The position numbers and the translations under genes were made by a program. Of a stretch of 52,489 nt of DNA, positions 5,964-40,851 are shown piece by piece. Position 1 is the stretch's first letter; every line of letters begins with the position of its first letter. The stretch comes from a virus: positions 1 to 52,489 of IMG/VR virus record IMGVR_UViG_3300032242_002525; one strand, given 5' to 3'. Below the pieces are notes generated by a model. That model searched no databases and was not told the DNA's origin. It saw only the letters and a list, made by a program, of their open reading frames with translations.

Positions 5964-6335
5964 TTATTCCAATGTAAGTAGATAACTTAGCTTGTTGAAC
6001 AAACCTAAAATTTCATCACGCACATTTAACAAATTTGTATCTTTTTCGTCAAATTGTTCGGTGAATTGATTTAATGCTTCAACCACTTTTTTAATCATTA
6101 TTTTAGTATTAATATCATTTACATTAAATAATTTAATAGTATCTGTTTCATCATCTAAAGTAAAACGACCATATTTTCCCATAGCTTCTTCTACAAAAGT
6201 ATCTGTTAAATCTAATAATTCATCAAAAGTTTCATCCAATGCTTTATGTTTAGCATATCCTTTAGTTTGCCAATGCATAATTTTAACTTGACAAGCTAAA
6301 CCTAATAAGAAATTTACATTAGTATTTATATTCAT
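5964..6335 (-). CDS. Small helical protein with Dps/ferritin-like motif
   Basis: This 123-residue, almost all-helical protein contains KIMHWQTKGYAKHKALDETF early on (about residues 18-37), which resembles the HW...H..LDE.F helix pair of Dps/ferritin-type proteins and of a phage family annotated as DUF5856. The usual full set of ferroxidase ligands is not evident, so iron binding is unproven. Its start overlaps the end of the preceding gene by 17 bases. It is last in a three-gene unit ended by the strong terminator at 5909-5937. A virion-associated or DNA-binding role is possible; function is unknown. Confidence 0.7.
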   Translation of the reverse strand: MNINTNVNFLLGLACQVKIMHWQTKGYAKHKALDETFDELLDLTDTFVEEAMGKYGRFTLDDETDTIKLFNVNDINTKIMIKKVVEALNQFTEQFDEKDTNLLNVRDEILGLFNKLSYLLTLE

Positions 6336-6954
6336 CTTGAGTATCGTTTGCAGGATTAAATGTATCCTTAATCATATTATTTGTATAATCCTGTACATCA
6401 TTCTTAGTTAAAACATATTCGTTCTTACCAGCTGCTTGCATTTCAGGTAATTTACTATTGAAAAATTGTTGAGGATTTTGACTAAATGGGTATGAATCTA
6501 ATGAACGCATTTCTAATTTTTCTTCAGGGGATTTAGGTTTCATTTCTTGAACCTTTTGTCCCAATTCATCAATTTTAGATATAATTTGGTTCATTTCACC
6601 TAACTTAGATTCTAAATCATTTAATTTGGTAAAAACATCATCCATTTTACTAACAACTGTTGAGTTGTTATTTTGGCTATCTTCTTGACCTTTTTTAACG
6701 CTTTTTACCATATCAACTAAATCCGTAATATCAATTTCTTCAGTTGTATCCATTTCAGGTGCAGGTGCAGCATCTGGTGCTGGTGCGTCTGTTGGTGGTG
6801 GCACATCTCCACCTGGTGCAGGTGGTATGTCAGTTGGTGGCGCATCTCCTGCTGCTAGTGCAGGTGGAGCATCTTGTTCCATTATCATCGTTTTACCATA
6901 TTTGTTTATGGATCTATAACGATTTAATTCTTCTTGTAATTTTTGTTCTAACAT
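6319..6954 (-). CDS. Pro/Ala-rich coiled-coil protein, probably virion associated
   Basis: This 211-residue protein has three parts: a charged N-terminal helix containing LNRYRSINKYGKTMIMEQ (residues 11-28), a Pro/Ala/Asp-rich linker (about 29-70), and a heptad-like coiled-coil region (about 80-145) with many Leu/Ile at a/d positions. The final third is polar. No enzyme motif is seen. The N-terminal peptide loosely resembles short helices found at the ends of structural proteins encoded at 38261-40851. It is in a late-type unit (promoter motif at 7174-7183), so a head-core, scaffold or internal protein is a reasonable guess, not established. Confidence 0.75.
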   Translation of the reverse strand: MLEQKLQEELNRYRSINKYGKTMIMEQDAPPALAAGDAPPTDIPPAPGGDVPPPTDAPAPDAAPAPEMDTTEEIDITDLVDMVKSVKKGQEDSQNNNSTVVSKMDDVFTKLNDLESKLGEMNQIISKIDELGQKVQEMKPKSPEEKLEMRSLDSYPFSQNPQQFFNSKLPEMQAAGKNEYVLTKNDVQDYTNNMIKDTFNPANDTQDEYKY

Positions 6955-16200: not shown

Positions 16201-17930
16201 CTAGCCTGATTTTGTTCTGAAACTTTTAAGTCGTATGGTGGAAACCACATAACACGACCACCATTTGGACCTCTTTCGCAAATTGGTAAATCTTGTACTG
16301 TGAAACCAGCTAATGTAGATGTTTTCCAAGCAAGGTTTTCGATTGAAAACATATATTTCTTTGCTTGACCATCTTTAATATTTGTTGAATTAGCAAATGA
16401 ACTTCCACCTGTTATACCATTATCATTTTGTCCATTTGACATTGGGGCATAGTTCAAATTCCAAACTCTACTATTACCACCTAAAACACTACCATCAAAT
16501 TTTCTAACATTTGATCCTTGTCTCATGGTGTTTGTATATGTACCATATGTTCCTGCCTTTGTCCAAACTCTTCCAAATTCTGCGCCAACAGGATTAGTAT
16601 TTTTATCAACCAATGTTTTAACTGCAGAACCTTTTGAAATTTTCACACCGCCATCAACAAAAAATCTTGACGTTTGGTCAATTACTTGTGAAACATGCGA
16701 TGCCGCTTCACCATTATTAGATGGTTTAGTGTTTAATATAAATTGCGTCTTACCTAAAAGTGAATCTGGCCTAAATGTAACACCTGTTGATATAACATTT
16801 CTAGTATCATATGATAAACCTGCTGTATTATTTTTTGTATTCTTACTAACCCATACTAATTCTTTACCTGTATGATCAATATCAGCTGTTACATCATCAA
16901 ATGCTTTTGCTAAATAATATGGACTTCTTATTTGGTTATCCCAAAAGTCACCCATAGCATATTTTACATCATCATATCTATCATCACCAATATATGTTGT
17001 TCCAGGTATTTGTAAAAAGTTATTTATGTTTAATGTGTTAAATAATGTATTTTCAATTTGTGAAACTACAGTATAGTTTGGTGAATATTTTGAACGACCA
17101 ATTAAATCAAATAATATACTTTTTTGACCATCACCCATATAGTTTATTAAAACATCAGATGGTCTTGGACTAATTTTTGGTTTACCATTTATACCAATCA
17201 TAGAAGCAATTACACCTGTAGCATCATTTAAAATGGTTCCAAGTTGTAATGGGTTTTGAGGATTATTACTTAATATGTCATTTGGATTTGTTAAGTAATT
17301 TCCAGGAATAATACTGATTGGTGAACTTTCTGCTGTAATAGCATCTAAAAAATTTTTTGGTACACCTGAACGATTTGATGGGCTAACAGTTACACTATAA
17401 TTTCTTTCAACTAAAGGTTCTCTTCCTGTAATTAAATTCAATGCTGTGGCTGTATTACCATTTAACGCATCTAATAATCTATTTCTACCATTAGTTGTTT
17501 TTTCTATATTTTGTGCGATTCTAGCATATACTGGACCTTTTTTTGTTGTGTCTTTAATATATGATGCAGCAAATTTAAATAACTCAGATTCAGTACTAAA
17601 ATTATTATTAGTCATTATACTAACTAATGTATTATCAGAACTAACAAAATATGGATATAATTGTAAATTTGCTCTTCTAGGTAAATTACCTAAATCTGTA
17701 TATGTTTCAAAATCTGTTGGTTTATAAACATTTACGTTTGATGTTTGTGTTAATTCATTTGGAACATTTGCATCGATAGCAGGTTGTGCTACGTTAGCAA
17801 AATCACTTAAATTTTGTACACCATAATTTGAACTAGTGAACTCAATAGGTCCATTAGCTGGTTTTAATGTTTTAGAAAGAATGAACTTTCTAAAATTGTT
17901 TGTTGTATCAAAATCTAAATATGCTGGCAT
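13248..17930 (-). CDS. Giant tail/baseplate structural protein
   Basis: This 1560-residue protein is Asn/Thr/Ser-rich and likely beta-rich. A recognisable block near residues 510-620 contains MFSIENLAWKTS, CERGPNGGRVMWFPPYDLK, FLGRPEPIYTYQNTERSG and KVVVDHPSVLN, which I recall from large structural proteins of T4-like phages of marine bacteria. A later stretch (about 1080-1170) with VLRIGDFYHSKIIIRDVNITY looks like a tube- or baseplate-type beta domain. No enzymatic motif is seen. A CTATTTATAG motif lies three bases before the ATG. It precedes the gp53-like gene with a one-base overlap, so it belongs to the baseplate. The exact T4 counterpart is unclear. Confidence 0.75.
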   Translation of the reverse strand: MPAYLDFDTTNNFRKFILSKTLKPANGPIEFTSSNYGVQNLSDFANVAQPAIDANVPNELTQTSNVNVYKPTDFETYTDLGNLPRRANLQLYPYFVSSDNTLVSIMTNNNFSTESELFKFAASYIKDTTKKGPVYARIAQNIEKTTNGRNRLLDALNGNTATALNLITGREPLVERNYSVTVSPSNRSGVPKNFLDAITAESSPISIIPGNYLTNPNDILSNNPQNPLQLGTILNDATGVIASMIGINGKPKISPRPSDVLINYMGDGQKSILFDLIGRSKYSPNYTVVSQIENTLFNTLNINNFLQIPGTTYIGDDRYDDVKYAMGDFWDNQIRSPYYLAKAFDDVTADIDHTGKELVWVSKNTKNNTAGLSYDTRNVISTGVTFRPDSLLGKTQFILNTKPSNNGEAASHVSQVIDQTSRFFVDGGVKISKGSAVKTLVDKNTNPVGAEFGRVWTKAGTYGTYTNTMRQGSNVRKFDGSVLGGNSRVWNLNYAPMSNGQNDNGITGGSSFANSTNIKDGQAKKYMFSIENLAWKTSTLAGFTVQDLPICERGPNGGRVMWFPPYDLKVSEQNQARWESNAFLGRPEPIYTYQNTERSGQLSFKVVVDHPSVLNLLIREHFKNMDDVTAEEHINAFFAGTENFDFYNLIQTYTVLDKTDIDTLLQYLNANKNPDSVAQNKYLSVPVVKENKSNTDTNATTSVSYSGTFYFPNAVPGTFGSSVTTTQDSYSSVYSSYSGVSSSYKTALQTDLSIVSTGTTAANISDRNSVFGTKTIDITKISDIVNKKLSDVDTIFSGLTNDYNKFITEIASLKELIKINKVKNGVFHVTTTCTPAGETGANFYLGVRRAYSIVYEFLKQISSDGTVKGVKWKNANDLKALTQTGTPTYTTTYTFKELGYENNPDSITITWDTYGEKTPTTTGCNVSFSHTANGGDLNLHAPIAISCRQGELKLTYDKLNDQSAPKPDGSPTTLKVTADDTPPIKKPKPSLDTLKRIVMKTLGECYYFKKLEDTDPFVFDTITKKLKYFHPAFHSTTPEGLNSRLTFLLQCVRPGDTIPIKSSEDTQGINARNTTFGPPPICVLRIGDFYHSKIIIRDVNITYENATWDLNPEGIGVQPMLADVTMQISFIGGQGLEKPVERLQNALSSNFFANTEMYDPRSENTATSISGMTTAEFTQKFIDEMMKKPELQLAKDTQVPGTLTEGTTIGKTVGQTIDYAPLIDTLFKNTNIYAKTYKSVYDSLVKTFGFKIPTIVFSSNYRPLNGYDVLTTSSTSQTIGLLGLYNPSLDLSTLVSKVRDVLHDSVDNTNMLTDIFKVIDRDDQAATDLENIFKPIIKNALDTKMNSILSNKNLKDLEAKRNDIISNLDNLNYIQKFSSGSTAYDAYITGTTYYEVAIDGFDATNFYVNYANDVNYLGGLNNLFNTNLDTSIDWSNVSTLTPQIILEIIPYILKDSINDMITEFKKDGLSEVGNSNGTPYSEVLKINFNSNAPKEITDTKVTLVEPPVRSSTSSISYNAATPNLIDVTDPLGKKPILNILFVDKNNGPTNSKLNYYKVKK

Positions 17931-17933
17931 TAT

Positions 17934-17943
17934 CTATAAATAG
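17934..17943 (-). promoter_or_regulatory. Putative late promoter motif (CTATTTATAG)
   Basis: CTATTTATAG on the minus strand ends three bases before the ATG of the 1560-residue structural protein. If it is a -10 element, the transcript would be leaderless or nearly so. Confidence 0.45.
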
Positions 17944-17945
17944 AA

Positions 17946-19895
17946 TTAATTAGTTTTTATTGCGTTATTAGTGTATAATCTAGCGTTTCTTGAAGTTAAA
18001 TTAGTTAAGAAACTTGAATCTTTTGCAATGCCTCTTCCCATATCATCTAATAATGCTGGAACCTTTATATTAACAGTATGTTCAATTTGTTGAGTACCAT
18101 TATTTGTATTATTGTTTTGTGCAGTAGTATTATTACCGCCGTTCATGCTATTAGTTAATGTTTGTTGATTTGTTCCAGAATTTACCGATTTTGGTTTAAC
18201 TCCTGTTGTTTTTTTACCGTCAATTCCATGTCCAGTAATTAAGTTCATAACTCTATCCGCTGTACCTTTAGAGTCTTCACCCATATTTTTTAAACTTTCA
18301 GTTATTTTATTTGCAAGTGAATTATTAATTCCAAATAAATTAGCAATTTCAGAGACGCCTTTACCACCTTGTAATCTAGCATTTGCAGCTAAAAATTCAA
18401 CATATCTCATAATTTGTTGAACATTAGTCGCTTGATTTTTAATTATATCTTGTGGTGACATATCTTTTAATTGTTCCTGATTATTTAATAATACTTTTAA
18501 AATTTCAGGATTATTACTTAAATCAGATAATGCAATTTTATTACCTTGAATTAATTGATCTTGTAATTTAGTACCAGTTAAATCAATGGTCATTTTACCA
18601 CCTTCCATTCTAGCTAGGTTAGTTAAAAATTCCTTTTGGTCTTTATTAACACCTGAACCTAAACCAAGTAAATCTGTTTTTGCTTTAGATCTTTCTTGGA
18701 ATGCAATTGCGGATTTTGTTAAATCATCAACACTCATACCCGTTTCTTTAGCCATGTCTCTAACTCTTCTTATGTTAAGAGAATTGATTTCAAATTTACC
18801 TTGTTGAGCATTATATGTTGCCAAAGAACCCGCTGCTTTAATAAATGCTTCTTGTAAACCTTCAACATTATTTGTAGCCATATACATCAACTTAAGTGGA
18901 TCACCAAAGTCACCTATAGCACCACCAATTACTTGTAGTTTAGCAGAAAATTCTAATGCACCTTGTGGGTCCATAACTTTATCTGCAATATCTAAAACAC
19001 CTTGTAATGAACTTCTAAATTCAATTGATTTACGAACCATTTCACCTAATCCTTGTATACCATCTTTAAATCCATATGAATTTAATTTACTAAGATTTGC
19101 ACCAACCTCTTGTGTTACCTTTTGTGTATTTAAACCTAAACTTAATGTTCTTTGACCTATAATACCAATTTCTCTTGAAGCTGATACTGCGCCATAACCA
19201 ACTTTTTCAAATTCAGGAATAAGATTTGTGAAAGCTTCCAAACTACCCATGTAAGCTTGTCCTGTTTTTGCAAATTCCGTAAATGATTCTTGGTTAAAAA
19301 TTAAAAACCTTCCAGATTTTTGTAAAATATCTGTTGCAGCTCTACCTAACTCATCGAAATGGATACCATATTTTAATAATTCAACATTTGTATCTGTTAA
19401 TGTTTTTCTGTAATCTTCTGAAATTTGACCCGTTAACCCACCTGCTTTGTTGATATCATTTAATAAACCAGCTTGTTGTTTATAATAATTTCCAATTCCA
19501 TTAACAGCTGTTTTCAAAATACCAGAAACAATATCACCAGTATTTTTTATGTTATTATTACTATCTAATATTAAATCTTTTAAATCTTGTACTTTTACTT
19601 TATCAGCATCTAAACCTTGTAATGTTGTTGTTTCACCTGCAGCAAATAAATCAGCTGACATACCTAATATACCACCACCAATTTTTTGAAATTGATTTGG
19701 ACTACTATTGTTGCTACCACCACTATTTGAATTATAGGTTGCACCATGTTTTATGGTGTTAAAATCTCTATTTATAACTGCAGTGTAGTCGGTTTTGTCC
19801 TTTAAGGGGTCAATGTTTTTACTTTTATACCATTCACTAACAACATCACTGTCGACTTTGTTTTTTCTACCAACAATATCGTCAAATTTACTCAT
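17946..19895 (-). CDS. Tail tape measure protein
   Basis: This 649-residue, mostly helical protein has the low-aromatic, Gln/Asn/Lys/Leu-rich composition of tape measure proteins. It sits exactly where one is expected: tube, then chaperone with frameshift extension, then tape measure. A hydrophobic central segment (about residues 225-265, including GYGAVSASREIGIIGQRTLS) could span a membrane on ejection. The C-terminus (about 560-610) is Asn/Gln/Gly/Thr-rich. The length is similar to T4 gp29 (590 residues), so a tail of T4-like length, roughly 100 nm by the 0.15 nm per residue rule, is inferred. No peptidase or lysozyme domain is visible. Confidence 0.8.
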   Translation of the reverse strand: MSKFDDIVGRKNKVDSDVVSEWYKSKNIDPLKDKTDYTAVINRDFNTIKHGATYNSNSGGSNNSSPNQFQKIGGGILGMSADLFAAGETTTLQGLDADKVKVQDLKDLILDSNNNIKNTGDIVSGILKTAVNGIGNYYKQQAGLLNDINKAGGLTGQISEDYRKTLTDTNVELLKYGIHFDELGRAATDILQKSGRFLIFNQESFTEFAKTGQAYMGSLEAFTNLIPEFEKVGYGAVSASREIGIIGQRTLSLGLNTQKVTQEVGANLSKLNSYGFKDGIQGLGEMVRKSIEFRSSLQGVLDIADKVMDPQGALEFSAKLQVIGGAIGDFGDPLKLMYMATNNVEGLQEAFIKAAGSLATYNAQQGKFEINSLNIRRVRDMAKETGMSVDDLTKSAIAFQERSKAKTDLLGLGSGVNKDQKEFLTNLARMEGGKMTIDLTGTKLQDQLIQGNKIALSDLSNNPEILKVLLNNQEQLKDMSPQDIIKNQATNVQQIMRYVEFLAANARLQGGKGVSEIANLFGINNSLANKITESLKNMGEDSKGTADRVMNLITGHGIDGKKTTGVKPKSVNSGTNQQTLTNSMNGGNNTTAQNNNTNNGTQQIEHTVNIKVPALLDDMGRGIAKDSSFLTNLTSRNARLYTNNAIKTN

Positions 19896-29361: not shown

Positions 29362-29892
29362 ATGAGTTTAAGAGAAGCAACCGCAGAATTACACAGCAAG
29401 GCTGAAAAAATGACCTTTAATCAAAGAATGTTTAGAGGTGAATTATCTAATCTAGAATATGTAAATTATCTACTTCAACAAATGACTATTTTTGATCAAT
29501 TTGAAACTAGAGATTTGGTTATCAAAGGATTAGATAGAAAAGAAAAAGTAATAGAAGATATTTTAGAATTAAATAATGGTATACTTTTAGAAGAAAATAA
29601 AATTTGTCCTGCTACAGTATACTATGCCACTTATTTAAAAAATTTAAACGATGTTGATATTTTACCACATGTTTATTTAAATTATTTAGCATTGGCTTAT
29701 GGTGGACAAATGATGAAAAAAGTAACACCTGGTAGCGGTAAAATGTATGATTTTGATAACATGCAAGAATTAGTTGGTAGTATTCGTGCAATTCAAAAAG
29801 ACGAATGGGCTAATGAAGTTAATAAAGGTTTTCAATTCTTAATTACAATATTTGATGAATTACAAAGAGACTCTGAACTTAGTAGCAAATAA
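29362..29892 (+). CDS. ho: Heme oxygenase (HO-1/HemO family)
   Basis: This 176-residue all-helical protein should open heme to biliverdin, Fe2+ and CO. The N-terminus LREATAELHSKAEKMTFNQR (3-22) matches the HO proximal helix; H11 is the likely heme ligand, followed by the family's AE...F....F.G pattern. The distal helix is NYLALAYGGQMMKK (107-120): the GGQ motif is kept (G114, G115, Q116), but the positions equal to human HO-1 Gly139 and Asp140 are Ala110 and Leu111. It is shorter than cyanobacterial HO (about 240 residues). It overlaps the bilin reductase gene by 38 bases, so the product can be handed on directly. Electron donor is probably host ferredoxin. Activity is not proven because of the changed distal pocket. 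Confidence 0.85.
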   Translation: MSLREATAELHSKAEKMTFNQRMFRGELSNLEYVNYLLQQMTIFDQFETRDLVIKGLDRKEKVIEDILELNNGILLEENKICPATVYYATYLKNLNDVDILPHVYLNYLALAYGGQMMKKVTPGSGKMYDFDNMQELVGSIRAIQKDEWANEVNKGFQFLITIFDELQRDSELSSK

Positions 29893-30487
29893 ATTTGAAA
29901 AAATTATTTTAGAAGAAACTAACGGAACAATTATTCCTACGGAAGATTTTGGTTGGGATAATCGTAGGTTTATTTCTGATGTTTTTAGAATTGCACATAT
30001 TGAAAGATATAGTGACAACAATTTAGAAGTTTTACACTTTACATGTTTTCCTAGTAATGTAAATCCGGAACCAATTTTTGGTTTTGATATTATTACAACA
30101 CCTAATAAATGTTTAGCAGCATTTTTAGATTGGAGCCCTGTGATTAGTAATGATACATATGTTTCACCTTACGATTTTAAAACACCATATAAATTACCTG
30201 AATGGGCAAAAGAAATCTTTTCAAAAGATGCTATTGCTATTGTTCCTAATGATGAAGAGTTTGATATTATTGCTAATATAGCTATTAGATGTTTTGAAAG
30301 TTATATTGAATTATTATCTAGTGCGGAACAATTCCCACATTTAGCAAATGATATTAAAAATTCACAAAATAGATATTGTGAAAATCAACAAAAGAATGAA
30401 AGAACATACAATGTCTTAAAAGCTAAACTTGGAGAAGCTAAAGCTAAAGAATTTATGACTTCCATTCTTTTCCCAATGATATATTAA
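29855..30487 (+). CDS. Ferredoxin-dependent bilin reductase (PcyA/PcyX/PebS family)
   Basis: This 210-residue protein should reduce biliverdin to a phycobilin using ferredoxin. Family landmarks are clear: FRIAHIERYSDNNLEVLHFT (44-63), IFGFDIIT (74-81), LDWSPV (91-96), and the C-terminal YCENQQKNERTYNVLKAKLG then FMTSILFPMIY, which parallels PcyA's [20 protein letters not shown]. E50, H61 and D78 align with PcyA Glu76, His88 and Asp105. The spacing His to Asp is 17, as in PcyA. I chose ATG 29855 rather than the TTG just before it. The reduction product (phycocyanobilin, phycoerythrobilin or other) cannot be told from motifs. Its end overlaps the DNA polymerase 3' end by four bases on the other strand. 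Confidence 0.92.
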   Translation: MNYKETLNLVANKFEKIILEETNGTIIPTEDFGWDNRRFISDVFRIAHIERYSDNNLEVLHFTCFPSNVNPEPIFGFDIITTPNKCLAAFLDWSPVISNDTYVSPYDFKTPYKLPEWAKEIFSKDAIAIVPNDEEFDIIANIAIRCFESYIELLSSAEQFPHLANDIKNSQNRYCENQQKNERTYNVLKAKLGEAKAKEFMTSILFPMIY

Positions 30488-33829: not shown

Positions 33830-36229
33830 TTAATATAATCTTTCTATTGAAATAAAGTTATTGTTGTAAGCACCGCCAATTATCAGTGTAATACGATATA
33901 CTTTGCTGTAATTATAATTTAGTGTATAAATTGAGGTGTCACCTTCACTTGAAAATTGCCAGTTAAAAATTGAAGTACTTGAAGATGTTGTTAATGAAAA
34001 TCCAGCAGATGATCCGCCGTAACCACCTCCATAAGCATTATAATTACCAGCTATATAACAACTTGTTGTTCCTGATACTGATGCTAAGCTCAATCCACGA
34101 TTTGCACTTGTTGTTACTGTTGCTTTGATGTTATCCAATGTTACAAATGTTCCTGCGTTTACAAATCCACTTGTTTTCCATAATAATTCACCACCAACAT
34201 TATTAGGTGCTTTGGATAAATCAAGATAAACACCCCTACTATTACCACCACCTTCAAACATTCTCAATCTATCTTGATAAACATCCACCACAACAAAACT
34301 ACCCGTCAATGTACTACCTGATTTTGCGTATGCTAAATCTAATTCACCACCTTCATATCCTCCTTGCGCACTAATAACTACCGAACCACTTAATGTGGTT
34401 GGACCTTTGATATCCATATTCCCACCAACATTCAAATCACCCGTTGAAGTTACACCGCTAACAATCGTCAATACCGATGTACCGCTAGTTCCCGAAGTTC
34501 CAGAAGTACCTGACCATCCATTTATTTGTTTAATATCAACATAACACATTGCAGTTTGTAAACCACCTGTTGAATTACTAAAATCACATTTAAGTGCAAC
34601 TTGGGTAGTTTCTGTTGTGGTAATAATTGTATCCGCAACTGGTTGCCAAGCCGCGGGTGCGATACTTGAAACTATTAATAAACCACCTGTATTACTTATT
34701 TGGTTATTTCCGCTAGTTACATTAATCCAATAATAATTTAATTCACTATTACTAGAACTATTTGCAAGTGCGAACGATGCATTCAAATTATATGTTTTAT
34801 TCGCGGCAAGTGTAAAAATACCAGTACTACTATTATATGAAATTGAACCGTTACTTGTTGTTGTACCTGATAAAATAAATTTATTACCTGTAGTTGGTAC
34901 TGTCGTTGTTGTTGGCCTAAAATATAACCAATCGTTATCAACATAACCTGATGTACCACTTGTACCTGCACTACCTGATGTACCACTTGATCCAGAAGAA
35001 CCATTCGTACCAGAAGAGCCAGAAATACCAGCTTGTCCATCATTACCTTTTGATACAAATAAATTCCATCTTATAGAATCACCATCAGGACTACTTCCTG
35101 AATTACCATCACCTATTTTAATGTAATTACTACCATCATATGAAACAATATCAACATTTGAAATATAATATCCTGATGGATTCCATGGGCCTTGCCACAT
35201 AAAACCACTACCTGAACTTCCTGAAGAACCACTAGTACCAGCAACACCACTTGTTCCTGATGAACCAGAAGTACTCATACTCCAAGTTAAATTACCAAAA
35301 CCATCTGTAACAATTGTTTGCCCCGCACTACCATCACTTGATGGCAATGTGTAATTATCAGTACCAATTGTTCCAATAACTTTAATATCATTATCAAAAA
35401 TAACACTTCCACTTATTTCAACAGTATATCCTGATGTCGGTATTGTATTTGCTGTGTTATTGAATTTATCTGTATTAATACCAATAGTTCCGTCGTTATA
35501 AATTGAAATTGAAGATGAATTCCATAAATTACCACCAAATATATGCACATGACCATGATTACCTGTACCTATTGAACCGATATACATGTCATTTGATTGG
35601 TTAAATAAATAACCATCACCACCATAACCAACTTGTCCACCGGTATAATTTGATGAGTTTATACCCAAATCAACAAATGATGAACTTTCTGTTGCAACAT
35701 CATTCCAAAGTACTAAATCAGCTGATGAATTAGAACCACTTCCGTAGTTTTTAATGTTTACCTCAGCATATGTATCCTGTTGTGTTGTTTGAAATGTCGC
35801 AATATTGAATGATCCACTAGCATCAACTATAAATCTTTCAGGAAAATAAGAATTAACAACTGAATTACCAACTGATACTGTAAAACCTGAATTTGTTATA
35901 TGTAATAAATCTGATCCGCTAACATAGTTAGATCCTGAAAAATATGCGAATTGTAAATTACTACCACTAATATGTGCATTTGGGCTAGTACCTGATGTAC
36001 CTGAAGAACCCGCTTGACCTGTTACACCACTTGTTCCTGATGTACCACTACTACCTGAAGTTCCTGCTGAACCCGCAGAACCAGCATTACCAGTAAAACC
36101 AGATGTTATTACTGTTTTTAAATCATGTAAAGTTACATTATATGTTGTATTACCATCATCATAAATTGTTTTACCTGTTAAACTAGGATATGGTAGATTT
36201 GGTAATTGAGAGATTCTTCTTAGTGCCAT
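33830..36229 (-). CDS. Collagen-like tail fibre protein
   Basis: This 799-residue protein begins MALRRISQLPNLPYPSLTGK, a common fibre start, and carries at least four Gly-X-Y tracts of Gly-Thr-Ser type: about residues 47-82, 315-340, 395-430 and near 570. These would form trimeric collagen-like shafts without proline. Between them are Ser/Asn/Gly-rich beta regions, and the C-terminal third (after about 580) is probably the receptor-binding or chaperone part. A TATTTAT motif overlaps the gap with the upstream lectin-like gene. It most likely adsorbs to host glycans or surface protein. Confidence 0.75.
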   Translation of the reverse strand: MALRRISQLPNLPYPSLTGKTIYDDGNTTYNVTLHDLKTVITSGFTGNAGSAGSAGTSGSSGTSGTSGVTGQAGSSGTSGTSPNAHISGSNLQFAYFSGSNYVSGSDLLHITNSGFTVSVGNSVVNSYFPERFIVDASGSFNIATFQTTQQDTYAEVNIKNYGSGSNSSADLVLWNDVATESSSFVDLGINSSNYTGGQVGYGGDGYLFNQSNDMYIGSIGTGNHGHVHIFGGNLWNSSSISIYNDGTIGINTDKFNNTANTIPTSGYTVEISGSVIFDNDIKVIGTIGTDNYTLPSSDGSAGQTIVTDGFGNLTWSMSTSGSSGTSGVAGTSGSSGSSGSGFMWQGPWNPSGYYISNVDIVSYDGSNYIKIGDGNSGSSPDGDSIRWNLFVSKGNDGQAGISGSSGTNGSSGSSGTSGSAGTSGTSGYVDNDWLYFRPTTTTVPTTGNKFILSGTTTSNGSISYNSSTGIFTLAANKTYNLNASFALANSSSNSELNYYWINVTSGNNQISNTGGLLIVSSIAPAAWQPVADTIITTTETTQVALKCDFSNSTGGLQTAMCYVDIKQINGWSGTSGTSGTSGTSVLTIVSGVTSTGDLNVGGNMDIKGPTTLSGSVVISAQGGYEGGELDLAYAKSGSTLTGSFVVVDVYQDRLRMFEGGGNSRGVYLDLSKAPNNVGGELLWKTSGFVNAGTFVTLDNIKATVTTSANRGLSLASVSGTTSCYIAGNYNAYGGGYGGSSAGFSLTTSSSTSIFNWQFSSEGDTSIYTLNYNYSKVYRITLIIGGAYNNNFISIERLY

Positions 36230-37488: not shown

Positions 37489-38268
37489 ATGGACAATTTT
37501 GTAAAACAGGTTATTGAAGAGAAATTTGCGTCAAAAGCGCAACAAAGATTTTTCTATGCTAAAGCCAAAGGTGGTAAAAATAAGAAGTGGGCTAAATGGG
37601 CTAAAGAATTTTCTGATAAAACAGACTATAGTAAAATCCCAAATAAAGTAGAAAAGGAAGAAGAAGTTGATGAAATAGTTGATGCTCAAGGTAATTTTGC
37701 ACATAGCAAAAGACCAGCTAATTTAGCAACTAAAGGAATTACATCAAATTCTACTACCGACCAAGTTGTTAGAACAGGTGCTGGTGAAATGGGTATTCAT
37801 GGTGTTCACGGTACACACACATCATTAAGGTATTGGGCTGAAGGTAAAGTAATATCTAAAGGTGAAATCATGGAAATTGCTATGGATGATGCTTTGGGTT
37901 ACGAAGAAACATTAGGTGATGATGAGAGTTTTAAAAAAGCTTACAAGCATTTTACTAAAGATTTAAAATTATCAGATGAAGAAGCAATGGATAGATTAAA
38001 GCAAATGGGTTACGATCCTGAGCTTCCGGGTGATATGGTTAGATTGATTGAAAATCCAATGAAATTCATGGAAGAATATATTGAAGATATTTTAGCTAAA
38101 AAGAAGCGTAAAGATTCTGATATTGTTAGCCGTAATGAAGAACCAATGGAGAAAAAAGAAATTAACCCAATAGTTAGAAGACAATTAATGTCATTAAAGG
38201 ATAGTTTGAAAAGCCATGGTTTATCTTCAAAAGATGTTTTGGAGTACCTAGAAGGAGAAGATGAATAA
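37489..38268 (+). CDS. Unknown protein heading plus-strand structural run
   Basis: This 259-residue, strongly charged protein starts MDNFVKQVIEEKFASKAQQR followed by FFYAKAKGGKNKKW, a lysine-rich stretch seen in several small phage proteins, then a His/Gly patch GEMGIHGVHGTHTSLRYWAE (about 95-114), and an acidic helical C-terminal half. I chose ATG over an upstream in-frame GTG because the promoter motif leaves room only for the ATG. Its 3' end overlaps the next gene by eight bases. A head, scaffold or packaging-linked role is possible; no family is recognised with confidence. Confidence 0.65.
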   Translation: MDNFVKQVIEEKFASKAQQRFFYAKAKGGKNKKWAKWAKEFSDKTDYSKIPNKVEKEEEVDEIVDAQGNFAHSKRPANLATKGITSNSTTDQVVRTGAGEMGIHGVHGTHTSLRYWAEGKVISKGEIMEIAMDDALGYEETLGDDESFKKAYKHFTKDLKLSDEEAMDRLKQMGYDPELPGDMVRLIENPMKFMEEYIEDILAKKKRKDSDIVSRNEEPMEKKEINPIVRRQLMSLKDSLKSHGLSSKDVLEYLEGEDE

Positions 38269-38752
38269 GGAATTAAAAGATAGAATATTTGATGTTCCTG
38301 AACACGTTTTGGAAAAAATAAGTCATACTGTTATGCACTTAAATGGAAAATACGTACATGGTAAAGATAGAGCTGAAAAATTATTAAAGGATAGAAAGGT
38401 TAAATACGGTCAATTAAAAAGAATCATTCATGATTTAAGTACAATTGATAAGGTTAGGGATCAAGTTAGATATAATTTATATGGTGGTGAGGTCATGGAA
38501 AAATGGGCTAACACTTATTTACAAGGTGAAAGGGATTTAGTTAGTAATAAAAAAGATTCTAAAATGAGAGCTGATAATATAGCGGGTGCAGGTGGTAGAA
38601 GTAATTCTCATTTAAAATCACATTCAAAAAAATTTAGCTTTGTTCCTAAATTAAATTTCATGAAAAGTAATTCACATAAGAATACCGCATCTGCAATGTC
38701 TTCTATGAAATTATTTGAGGAAATAAATAAAATAAAAAATTTAATGTTATAA
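38261..38752 (+). CDS. Unknown protein with C-terminal INKIKNLML helix
   Basis: This 163-residue basic protein has a helical N-terminal region (HVLEKISHTVMHLNGKYVHG), a lysine/serine-rich middle, and a C-terminal peptide KLFEEINKIKNLML that closely matches the C-terminal end of the WYL-domain protein at 39428 (KLQESINRIKTLML). It overlaps the previous gene by eight bases and is followed one base later by the repeat protein. No known domain is recognised. The shared tail suggests a common partner, such as the prohead core, but this is inference. Confidence 0.7.
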   Translation: MNKELKDRIFDVPEHVLEKISHTVMHLNGKYVHGKDRAEKLLKDRKVKYGQLKRIIHDLSTIDKVRDQVRYNLYGGEVMEKWANTYLQGERDLVSNKKDSKMRADNIAGAGGRSNSHLKSHSKKFSFVPKLNFMKSNSHKNTASAMSSMKLFEEINKIKNLML

Positions 38753-38753
38753 T

Positions 38754-39428
38754 ATGGCTCAATTTAATGAAACATATGATATAAGCGGCACAGGACCTAG
38801 TCCATTGCAAGTTATGTCACAACAATATCTTAATCAAGCAATCACTAGAAATAGATATGAATACGATAATGAATATGGGTCAACCAATAAAGATGCAATA
38901 TCACCATTAGGTGAAGGACAAAGTGAATATGGCCAAATAGGTAGAATGTCAGATATAAACGAAAGAAATAGTTTAATGGCCACAAACAAATTTGGTGAAA
39001 ACAACCAATATGGTTTATCTAATCCTGCTGCTATATCACCATTGGGTGAAGGTCAAAATGAATATGGACAAATTGGTACATTAACAGATATTAACACTAG
39101 AATAGGCATTGTTAGTGCAAATAGATATGGTGAAAATAACCCATACGGTTCAAATAATAAAGATGCTATATCACCATTAGGTGAAGGTCAAAATTCACAA
39201 ATGCAGGTTGGTAGAACATCAGATATAAATGAAAGAATTGGATTATTAGCATCCAATCAATTTAGTGAAAATAACCCGTATGGCTCAACTAATAAAGCAG
39301 CAATATCACCAATAGGTGAAGGTGAAAATAGCTCAGGTCAAGTTGGTACTTTAATAGATATTAATACTAGAACAACAGTTGTTGCTAAAAATAAATTTAA
39401 CGGTAGTAAAGTTTACCCAGATTTTTAA
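38754..39428 (+). CDS. Tandem-repeat structural protein (four 45-residue repeats)
   Basis: After about 32 residues this 224-residue protein consists of four repeats of exactly 45 residues, beginning at N33, N78, N123 and N168, with a partial fifth (N213). Each reads roughly N-aromatic...NN.YG..NK.AISPLGEG....G.xGxxxDIN.R. Repeats 1 and 3 share SDINER, while 2 and 4 share GTL.DINTR, so a 90-residue pair was duplicated. Low cysteine, high Asn/Gly/Ser content and regular period point to an elongated virion component. It overlaps the following gene by one base. No family is recognised. Confidence 0.7.
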   Translation: MAQFNETYDISGTGPSPLQVMSQQYLNQAITRNRYEYDNEYGSTNKDAISPLGEGQSEYGQIGRMSDINERNSLMATNKFGENNQYGLSNPAAISPLGEGQNEYGQIGTLTDINTRIGIVSANRYGENNPYGSNNKDAISPLGEGQNSQMQVGRTSDINERIGLLASNQFSENNPYGSTNKAAISPIGEGENSSGQVGTLIDINTRTTVVAKNKFNGSKVYPDF

Positions 39429-40222
39429 TGACATCTTTAACCAACATATTATTAAATGAGTTGATGAGTGATAAAAGATTGAATGCTATTCAATTAAAAA
39501 CCACTCAAACAAAGCCAATAGCAGATGCTGTTGTTAATAGGAATCCTATTAGCTTTATGTATTATGGTATAAAAAAAGGTAGAGATAGTGTTAAGCAAGG
39601 TAAAAGAATGAATGTTGAACCTTTTGCAATTGGTATGAGTAAGAAAGGTAAATTATTATTAAGAGCATATGTACCATCGCCAAATACATCCAAAAAAGGA
39701 TTTAACGATGGTAATCATTGGAGAACTTTTCAAATGAGTAATATGCGTAATGTTGTTATCAATACTGAAAGCACATTTGGTGAAAGACCTGGTTATCATC
39801 CTGGTGAAGAAGATAAACGTGGACCAATGGCATCTATATTAGTGTCAACTGATTTTAATGCGGTACCAAAACCAAAGAAACAAGCAAAACCAAAAGCAAC
39901 TAAATTAAAAGTTGCAAAGGAAAAGCCTGTTAAACCTGTTGCTGAACCAGAAGTTAAACCAACTGAGCCAACAGCACAGCCAACTGCGGAACCAACAACA
40001 CCAGAAACATTACCACAACCAACGCCTAAACAAAAACCTTCTGCGACACCGCCGACAGCAAAAACACTAGCGGAGCCAAAACCAGAAGAAACACCAACAC
40101 AGGAACCTGCTGCAGAAGTTCAACCAACAGAACCACCTGCTCCGGAAGTAAATCCTGAAGAAGAAAACAATAACAAACTACAAGAATCTATAAATCGAAT
40201 TAAAACTTTAATGTTATTTTAA
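39428..40222 (+). CDS. WYL-like domain protein with Pro/Lys-rich linker
   Basis: The N-terminal 125 residues look like a WYL (Sm-like beta-barrel) domain: NPISFMYYGIKKGRDSVKQG, KRMNVEPFAIGMSKKGKLLL and HWRTFQMSNMRNVVINTEST. WYL domains usually sense ligands or nucleic acid in regulators. Here it is followed by about 100 residues of Pro/Glu/Lys/Thr-rich linker and a C-terminal helix KLQESINRIKTLMLF like that of the 38261 gene product. There is no helix-turn-helix. It sits among structural genes, so a head-associated adaptor is more likely than a repressor. Its 264-residue length and linker are unusual for the family. Confidence 0.6.
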   Translation: MTSLTNILLNELMSDKRLNAIQLKTTQTKPIADAVVNRNPISFMYYGIKKGRDSVKQGKRMNVEPFAIGMSKKGKLLLRAYVPSPNTSKKGFNDGNHWRTFQMSNMRNVVINTESTFGERPGYHPGEEDKRGPMASILVSTDFNAVPKPKKQAKPKATKLKVAKEKPVKPVAEPEVKPTEPTAQPTAEPTTPETLPQPTPKQKPSATPPTAKTLAEPKPEETPTQEPAAEVQPTEPPAPEVNPEEENNNKLQESINRIKTLMLF

Positions 40223-40241
40223 TTTAATTTATATTATTAAA

Positions 40242-40251
40242 AATATTTATC
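40242..40251 (+). promoter_or_regulatory. Putative late promoter motif (AATATTTATC)
   Basis: AATATTTATC ends three bases before ATG 40255, identical in form to the motif before the gp13-like gene. Confidence 0.45.
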
Positions 40252-40254
40252 AAT

Positions 40255-40851
40255 ATGTCAGAGCAAGGAAAAGGAGTAATATCACAAAACGATTTAATGC
40301 ACAAATTAGTTCAAGCTAAAAAAGTTATGAATAAAGTTGATGGTGGAAATTACGAAAGAGGACACATAAATGAAAATATCATTAGAAGTGCACCTGAAGA
40401 TATTGATATGTCACAAATACAATCTGCACCAAATGTAAATAGACCTGTGAGTGGTCCTGTAAATGTTGATAGAATTAATAATTCTAAATTACCTGATGCA
40501 ATCAAACAAGCAATGATTAATCATCCAATAGAACAAATGCCATCTATATCTTTAAATGAAACATTAGATATGGATTTTATTAAAGGTGCTAAACGTTTAA
40601 TGGAACAAGAAGGTGTTGCACCATCAAAATCAAATAATACACATCAAAGAGCTTCTGTACCAATGTCATCTAATATTGACATGAATGCATTATCAGTTCT
40701 AATTGAAAATACTGTTCGTAAGGTTATGGATGAAAAATTAAATCAAATTCTTACCGCACAACAAACCCAATCTATGAATGAAAGTTTAGTACTTAAGGTT
40801 GGTGATTCTATATTCAAAGGAAAAATTACTGGCGTAAATAAATCAAAGTAA
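40255..40851 (+). CDS. Unknown structural-type protein
   Basis: This 198-residue protein has a polar N-terminal half with NHPIEQMPSISLNETLDMDF and IKGAKRLMEQEG (the latter resembles the INRIKxLML peptides of neighbours). Its C-terminal third contains a coiled-coil-like ENTVRKVMDEKLNQILTAQQ and a short beta end LVLKVGDSIFKGKITGV. No enzyme motif is seen. Independent promoter motif and isolated position between WYL-type and glycosyltransferase genes suggest a separately expressed virion or assembly protein. The family is not identified. Confidence 0.65.
   Translation: MSEQGKGVISQNDLMHKLVQAKKVMNKVDGGNYERGHINENIIRSAPEDIDMSQIQSAPNVNRPVSGPVNVDRINNSKLPDAIKQAMINHPIEQMPSISLNETLDMDFIKGAKRLMEQEGVAPSKSNNTHQRASVPMSSNIDMNALSVLIENTVRKVMDEKLNQILTAQQTQSMNESLVLKVGDSIFKGKITGVNKSK

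Follow-up and report, generated by a model that had tools for sequence, protein, structure and literature searches.

The 52,489-base window analyzed here is the complete IMG/VR virus record IMGVR_UViG_3300032242_002525. It is read as a phage fragment and carries T4-like tail tube, sheath, and baseplate genes together with those for a DnaB-type helicase, ribonucleotide reductase, and PhoH. Two forward-strand genes, A and B, encode proteins that end in closely similar peptides, LFE-EINKIKNLML in A and LQE-SINRIKTLMLF in B, which we refer to as the C-terminal tag. A sequence-only reading of this DNA had noted that the proteins starting at 38261 and 39428 have matching ends and are otherwise unrelated; the ends were found as described, and the two proteins belong to separate blastp families. 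The locus contains the following features (pLDDT, predicted local distance difference test):

38261–38752, forward strand: protein A, 163 amino acids; no family matched.
38711–38719, forward strand: LFE of protein A, candidate prohead-protease site with the cut after E153; L and E invariant in 56/56 distinct sequences.
38720–38749, forward strand: C-terminal tag of protein A, EINKIKNLML; conserved family end.
38754–39428, forward strand: repeat protein without the tag, between tagged genes A and B; homologues lie at the same position in related contigs.
39428–40222, forward strand: protein B, 264 amino acids, with a WYL-like domain, a long Pro-rich linker, and a C-terminal tag.
39512–39862, forward strand: WYL-like domain of protein B, residues about 29–145 (Pfam match below cut-off, AlphaFold2 model, and Foldseek).
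39863–40171, forward strand: Pro-rich linker of protein B, residues about 146–247; low AlphaFold2 confidence, hypervariable among relatives.
40178–40186, forward strand: LQE of protein B, candidate prohead-protease site with the cut after E253; E in 64/64 and L in 62/64 sequences.
40187–40219, forward strand: C-terminal tag of protein B, SINRIKTLMLF; conserved end, predicted helix 248–263 with pLDDT of about 70.

IMG/VR was scanned with protein A, which gave 15 loci, and with an alignment of protein A, from which the best 80 of 128 confirmed matches were taken. These loci and the head loci yielded 56 distinct sequences for A and 64 for B; two of the latter are truncated copies of other members. 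All 120 sequences (A 56/56, B 64/64) have [LIV]xE directly upstream of the tag core. Within the A family, L, E, K, and L at positions 0, 2, 8, and 10 are each present in 56/56, and the two B sequences without L have I and V, one each. The eight residues just upstream of LxE in protein B are variable (entropy 1.8–2.9 bits), and four B sequences have a one-residue insertion in the tag (SESFVHRVKKLISYF). The consensus of this short terminal segment is LxExIxRIKxLM. Protein B used as a query recovered no relative in IMG/VR.

The AlphaFold2 model of protein A was confident to about residue 100, followed by a low-confidence linker and, with modest confidence, a helix at 145–162 (pLDDT about 46–65); its fold had no structural match (best E 1.5). 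The model of protein B showed a beta domain at about residues 29–145, some 100 low-confidence residues, and then the terminal helix. LxE sits inside the terminal helix in both models. The WYL profile of Pfam matched protein B below its cut-off (E = 0.0058; 17 bits vs. 21.8). The first 12 Foldseek matches were all WYL proteins, PafBC or DriD; the best had E 4.3e-4, the sole value at or below 0.001, and the template modelling scores of 0.20–0.29 are by full query length. Protein B thus has a WYL fold by Foldseek, without a WYL profile above the Pfam cut-off.

Within the window, IN[RK]IKxLM occurred only at the ends of A and B among 312 open reading frames of at least 30 amino acids, spurious ones included. 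A wider scan with the C-terminal tag found 12 stretches, eight with a stop codon inside the pattern and four in frame; of these four, one was N-terminal, two were C-terminal (one family), and one lay in a short open reading frame. Other C-terminal tag families are few: L383/L384 with G016_133370, and an acidic core-like protein in contigs G005, G016, G019, and G023. Single cases include G020_210383, G020_211041, and G020_213070. The C-terminal regular expression also caught chance matches, among them the end KVTKIKKLS of the 40255 family, L386, and L051. The sequence-only reading had proposed two looser copies of the peptide in this window, at these places:

6877–6954, reverse strand: N-terminal tag version of the protein at 6319, MLEQKLQEELNRYRSINKYGKTMIME then Q, with the candidate site IME; supported by family conservation.
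40255–40851, forward strand: neighboring gene with the internal segment IKGAKRLMEQEG, judged not a tag.

The copy at the N-terminus of the 6319 protein held up, since LxEE[IL]xR[YH] with a downstream [IL]xE was kept in 7/7 distinct family members, the window included; a further member in G023 reads LIEEVARF. The one in the 40255 protein was rejected: IKGAKRLMEQEG is internal, lacks the LxExIxRI spacing, and is conserved within its own family of 65 without a terminal position. Proteins A, B, and 6319 had no relatives among cultured phages, and a 23-amino-acid tag peptide had no match there.

The same peptide also stands at protein starts, where it takes the form MNLQENIxRIKxMMG..[ILV]xE. A scan with a DNA pattern for M-N-L-x-E-N-I-x-R-I gave at least 120 stretches; the pattern was present at no fewer than 157 sites in uncultured phages, corresponding to at least 137 distinct proteins, at least 127 of them of 60 amino acids or more. 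By blastp (E 1e-3) of the sequence beyond residue 32, these longer proteins formed at least 55 clusters that were not linked to one another. At least 10 contigs above 250 kb were among the matches listed. In bacterial and archaeal genomes the pattern had four matches and none at a plausible gene start: one was internal (residue 193 of 323) and three lay in open reading frames of 20, 29, and 23 codons. A second [LIV]xE follows the N-terminal tag. Its E fell at residues 13–22 in 49/55 cluster representatives, against 8/55, 10/55, and 8/55 in the three ten-residue windows that follow; E was at residues 15–20 in 38/55 versus 3/55 at 21–26, and the count rises to 52/55 if E12, inside the helix, is included. 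Two loci (L296:4217–4819 and L265:2931–4133) encode cargo with a second, internal tag copy, like two fused tagged genes.

The tag is nearly confined to protein ends. Among 5,094 distinct proteins, a census that includes loci chosen for their tags, the tag regular expression matched 140 times at the N-terminus, 127 times at the C-terminus, and 22 times internally, several of the internal matches being mis-called starts; family counts were by single-linkage blastp and simple gene calls. A composite motif was sought in other proteins of these loci (1,258 of at least 100 amino acids, with gp21, gp22, the capsid protein, and the 6319 family taken out beforehand) and was found four times N-terminally and never C-terminally or internally. 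In contigs G016, G019, G020, G023, and G005, four of which were picked for holding at least one tag, a looser eight-residue expression had 8, 4, 9, 2, and 2 N-terminal matches where internal rates predict 0.70, 0.50, 0.51, 0.57, and 0.30; some of these N-terminal matches look like chance. C-terminal counts in the same order were 4, 1, 1, 3, and 4, of which 7/13 were tag-like by eye. A DNA- or RNA-level element was also considered and dropped because the motif occurs at either protein end.

An unguided within-genome comparison of protein starts revealed further shared ends. Similar pairs greatly exceeded background in G016 (102 vs. 13), G019 (58 vs. 7), and G020 (134 vs. 10); the top pairs of G023 (38 vs. 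10) and G005 (19 vs. 8) were mostly from other families. Besides the LQENI type, there are protein starts of the LTESDL and ITESQL types. Whole tags are exchanged between homologues, three cargo families being found with differing tags: the GLHDTSW.. cargo stands behind three types (LQENI-, LTESEL-, and ISESQY-), with [LIV]xE abutting the cargo in 10/11; the DPKxGTGKK cargo begins 1–2 residues after [LIV]xE in 4/4 proteins, and the NYMFF cargo 4–16 residues after it in 19/19. The tag can also change ends. In a pair of M23-peptidase-like proteins (named by eye; 39% identity over 133 columns), it is C-terminal in G019 and N-terminal in G020. Another shared C-terminus, YNRALSxxEIxQNYNAxKxRFGL, unrelated to the tag, occurs on several proteins of G005, G020, and G023; its presence in LamG-like proteins (named by eye) inflated the counts of C-end pairs.

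Pfam was run on 20 of the 55 representatives of N-tagged clusters, and 12/20 had no Pfam match. ART-PolyVal, an ADP-ribosyltransferase (ART) family, was found in three, below cut-off with E values between 1.9e-5 and 2.6e-4, a kinase/AAA-type P-loop and an acetyltransferase in one each, and weak ParB_N, phosphatase, and SprT-like matches also in one each. By eye, the cargo includes metallopeptidase HExxH and ParB-like GxHR motifs and cell-wall hydrolases. ART, ParB-like, and peptidase domains have been described among phage-packaged, injected proteins, as far as the available part of that account goes (PMC5512222).

Peptidase_S77, the gp21 family of prohead proteases, was above the Pfam cut-off in 14/16 large tag contigs and in 6/15 protein-A contigs, many of which are fragments. 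One contig, G020, had two Peptidase_S77 matches (31291 and 233494). According to the accessible portions of the literature, gp21 cuts after L/I-X-E (PMC9026906), and 65 residues are removed from T4 gp23 (PMC9958956), which has FLTE|A at 65. The capsid protein of the contigs has LINE|A at residue 60 in 17/17. As judged from sequence, L/I-X-E also lies at or near the junction of tag and cargo. The scaffold protein gp22 ends in an LxE-xKAYExPQFxRMKDLM-like segment, with an RMKxLM-like core in 26/26, and the gp21 C-terminus has a similar core in 21/21 by a loose expression and [LIV]xE in 20/21; the expressions for both ends were written after the ends had been viewed. In five genomes, [RK][MI][KRS]xLM falls within the final 27 residues of 8 of 1,594 proteins: four gp22 or gp22-like proteins, one gp21, one B, one other C-tagged protein, and one unexplained.

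We propose that the shared peptide is a modular, cleavable tag with which a T4-superfamily phage loads proteins into its head (capsid targeting) and which can work at either end of a protein; we put the probability of this reading at roughly 0.7. The sequence-only reading had already suggested a targeting tag akin to T4 capsid targeting, and that suggestion has gained from the near-exclusive terminal position, the many unrelated carriers, tag exchange, the presence of Peptidase_S77, and the scaffold core, all of which are sequence evidence. We infer packaging, clipping, ejection, and imitation of the scaffold from the same kind of data. The tag helix would bind the core of the prohead or its scaffold, perhaps where the C-terminus of the scaffold itself docks, and the flexibly tethered cargo would thereby be enclosed while the shell assembles. 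Once the shell had closed, gp21 would cut after [LI]xE, clipping off the tag and freeing the cargo, which would be ejected with the DNA and act on the host. In the case of protein B, the delivered cargo would then be a WYL-like domain such as the transcription activators PafBC and DriD contain.

A broader version of this proposal extends to uncultured T4-superfamily jumbo phages. They may have a general head-import system with interchangeable LQENI-, LTESDL-, and ITESQL-type tags, placed at either end, clipped by gp21, and mimicking the scaffold C-terminus, with many effectors per phage; we regard the chances of this as evenly balanced. If there is such a system with a small set of tags, the tag would be a sequence key from which the injected arsenal of never-cultivated phages could be predicted. 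It would provide a simple sequence rule for listing candidate head-packaged, injected proteins in uncultured phages.

Several observations weigh against a cleavable head-loading tag. No Peptidase_S77 match was obtained in the 52-kb window, in 2/16 tag contigs, or in 9/15 protein-A contigs. The [LI]xE motif is short and common; 6/55 N-tag representatives lack [LIV]xE at residues 13–22, one of the 11 GLHDTSW.. proteins has no conforming site at the junction, and in the NYMFF exchange family the site is 4–16 residues away from the shared cargo. Exchange between ends is known from one pair alone. Some tagged proteins resemble, by eye, cell-wall hydrolases and not classical head proteins. Finally, tags are nearly absent from the cultured Microcystis phage Mel-JY01, the best-ranked gp21 match, where a single one of 248 proteins gave a loose N-terminal match and protein-start pairs were near background (10 vs. 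6); the tag is therefore not general to T4-like phages.

The position of LxE raises a further objection, and with it an alternative. LxE stands at the very start of N-terminal tags (MNLQE..), so that cutting there would leave the helix on the protein, and it lies within the C-terminal helices of the AlphaFold2 models (A 145–162, B 248–263); for these reasons it may be part of the binding helix, instead of or besides a cut site. The whole LxExIxRIKxLM could then be a docking helix that binds the core, the scaffold, or another assembly partner and is never clipped, with [LI]xE as only a part of its binding face, and the intervals between L, I, I, and L/M would fit an amphipathic helix. Against it stand the second [ILV]xE, which follows the N-terminal tags at variable spacing in 49/55 representatives, the unrelated tag types that also end in [ILV]xE and are exchanged at or near it, and the retention of such a site by the capsid protein in 17/17. 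We consider docking without clipping unlikely.

A second alternative is that the peptide is a signal for another destination, such as tail or baseplate assembly, a replication compartment, or regulated degradation, and only looks like a head tag. The tagged proteins that resemble cell-wall hydrolases would suit it, as would the position of A and B among tail, fibre, and other non-head genes of the window. The similar C-terminal core of gp21 and the scaffold speaks for the head, however, as do the ADP-ribosyltransferase-, ParB-, and peptidase-like cargo, which resembles described head-packaged, injected proteins, and the fit of the tag junction to the prohead protease motif; we give this second alternative little credence. 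That the ends are alike by chance, or through a recent duplication of the end of one gene, is highly improbable: the peptide is short, and K, I, and L abound in low-GC genomes, but all 120 A and B sequences keep the tag while their linkers diverge, and the terminal bias and breadth contradict it as well.

Other features of the window and contigs were noted in passing. The repeat protein at 38754–39428 consists of units of about 50 amino acids containing AISPLGEG and is conserved in the cluster and untagged. At 29362–30487 (forward strand), genes for a heme oxygenase (Pfam E 2.1e-10) and, after it, a ferredoxin-dependent bilin reductase (Pfam E 4.5e-26) make up a bilin-making pair in a T4-like phage. 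A putative fibre protein with collagen-like GxSGTSG repeats is encoded at 33830–36229 (reverse strand). In phage Mel-JY01 (L392), hypothetical genes of similar size follow one another over a long stretch (about 105–143 kb), and a few of them have the start EIDFKFN in common. In G014, dUTPase and DnaB-type genes (17227–19110 and 66038–68907) seem, by eye, to be split by intein-like or homing insertions.

Several known systems resemble the one proposed here; what follows draws on the available parts of their descriptions. The capsid targeting sequence of the T4 IP proteins is likewise a short terminal peptide on diverged proteins, ends in L/I-X-E, and is cut by gp21, and here a gp21-type protease is found in related contigs. 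It is N-terminal and is reported, in those parts, on IP proteins and not on other core proteins. The tag of A and B, in contrast, is C-terminal in 120/120, and the peptide is common to unrelated proteins at both ends (at least 55 clusters at the N-terminus; A, B, and a small number of further families at the C-terminus), with several exchangeable types. T4 Alt, which is processed at both ends, and gp21, which cleaves itself, are similar in that a C-terminal propeptide is removed at LxE (LTE-619 in Alt). Alt loses 63 residues, whereas about 10 would be lost here, and the consensus here is common to unrelated proteins and to the N-terminal tag.

In phages SPN3US and phiKZ, several head and ejection proteins are cut after E by a gp21 relative, and the SPN3US protease loses a C-terminal propeptide; the motif there is A-X-E or S/A-X-E, unlike that of the tag. 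For SPN3US, 13/14 sites release N-terminal propeptides and the other is the protease's own C-terminus (PMC10052503). The P1 protein DarB has a terminal signal sufficient for loading a reporter into the head, but it is a single N-terminal signal, of which the first 30 residues suffice, and a shared module is not met in the available description. Polyvalent proteins also have ART, ParB-like, and peptidase domains and are predicted to be packaged and injected; they are multidomain chains, whereas the tagged proteins here are mostly small.

A text search of the open subset of PubMed Central (PMC) did not find the tag wording, nor was "C-terminal targeting" met as a term in the papers listed there for a C-terminal head signal. 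Because this search was empty and the described signals of T4, P1, and most of SPN3US are N-terminal, the tag would be a novel form of a known targeting signal. If the reading as a head-loading tag is right, it would provide a C-terminal handle for loading proteins into the T4-like heads of laboratory phages. In the accessible text, the role of the C-terminal propeptide of T4 Alt is posed as a question (PMC5694885), and that of head-protein C-terminal propeptides in Alt and gp21 is stated to be open (PMC5694885, PMC9026906). This question becomes directly testable with a C-terminal tag of fixed consensus that N-terminal tags share and the scaffold echoes.

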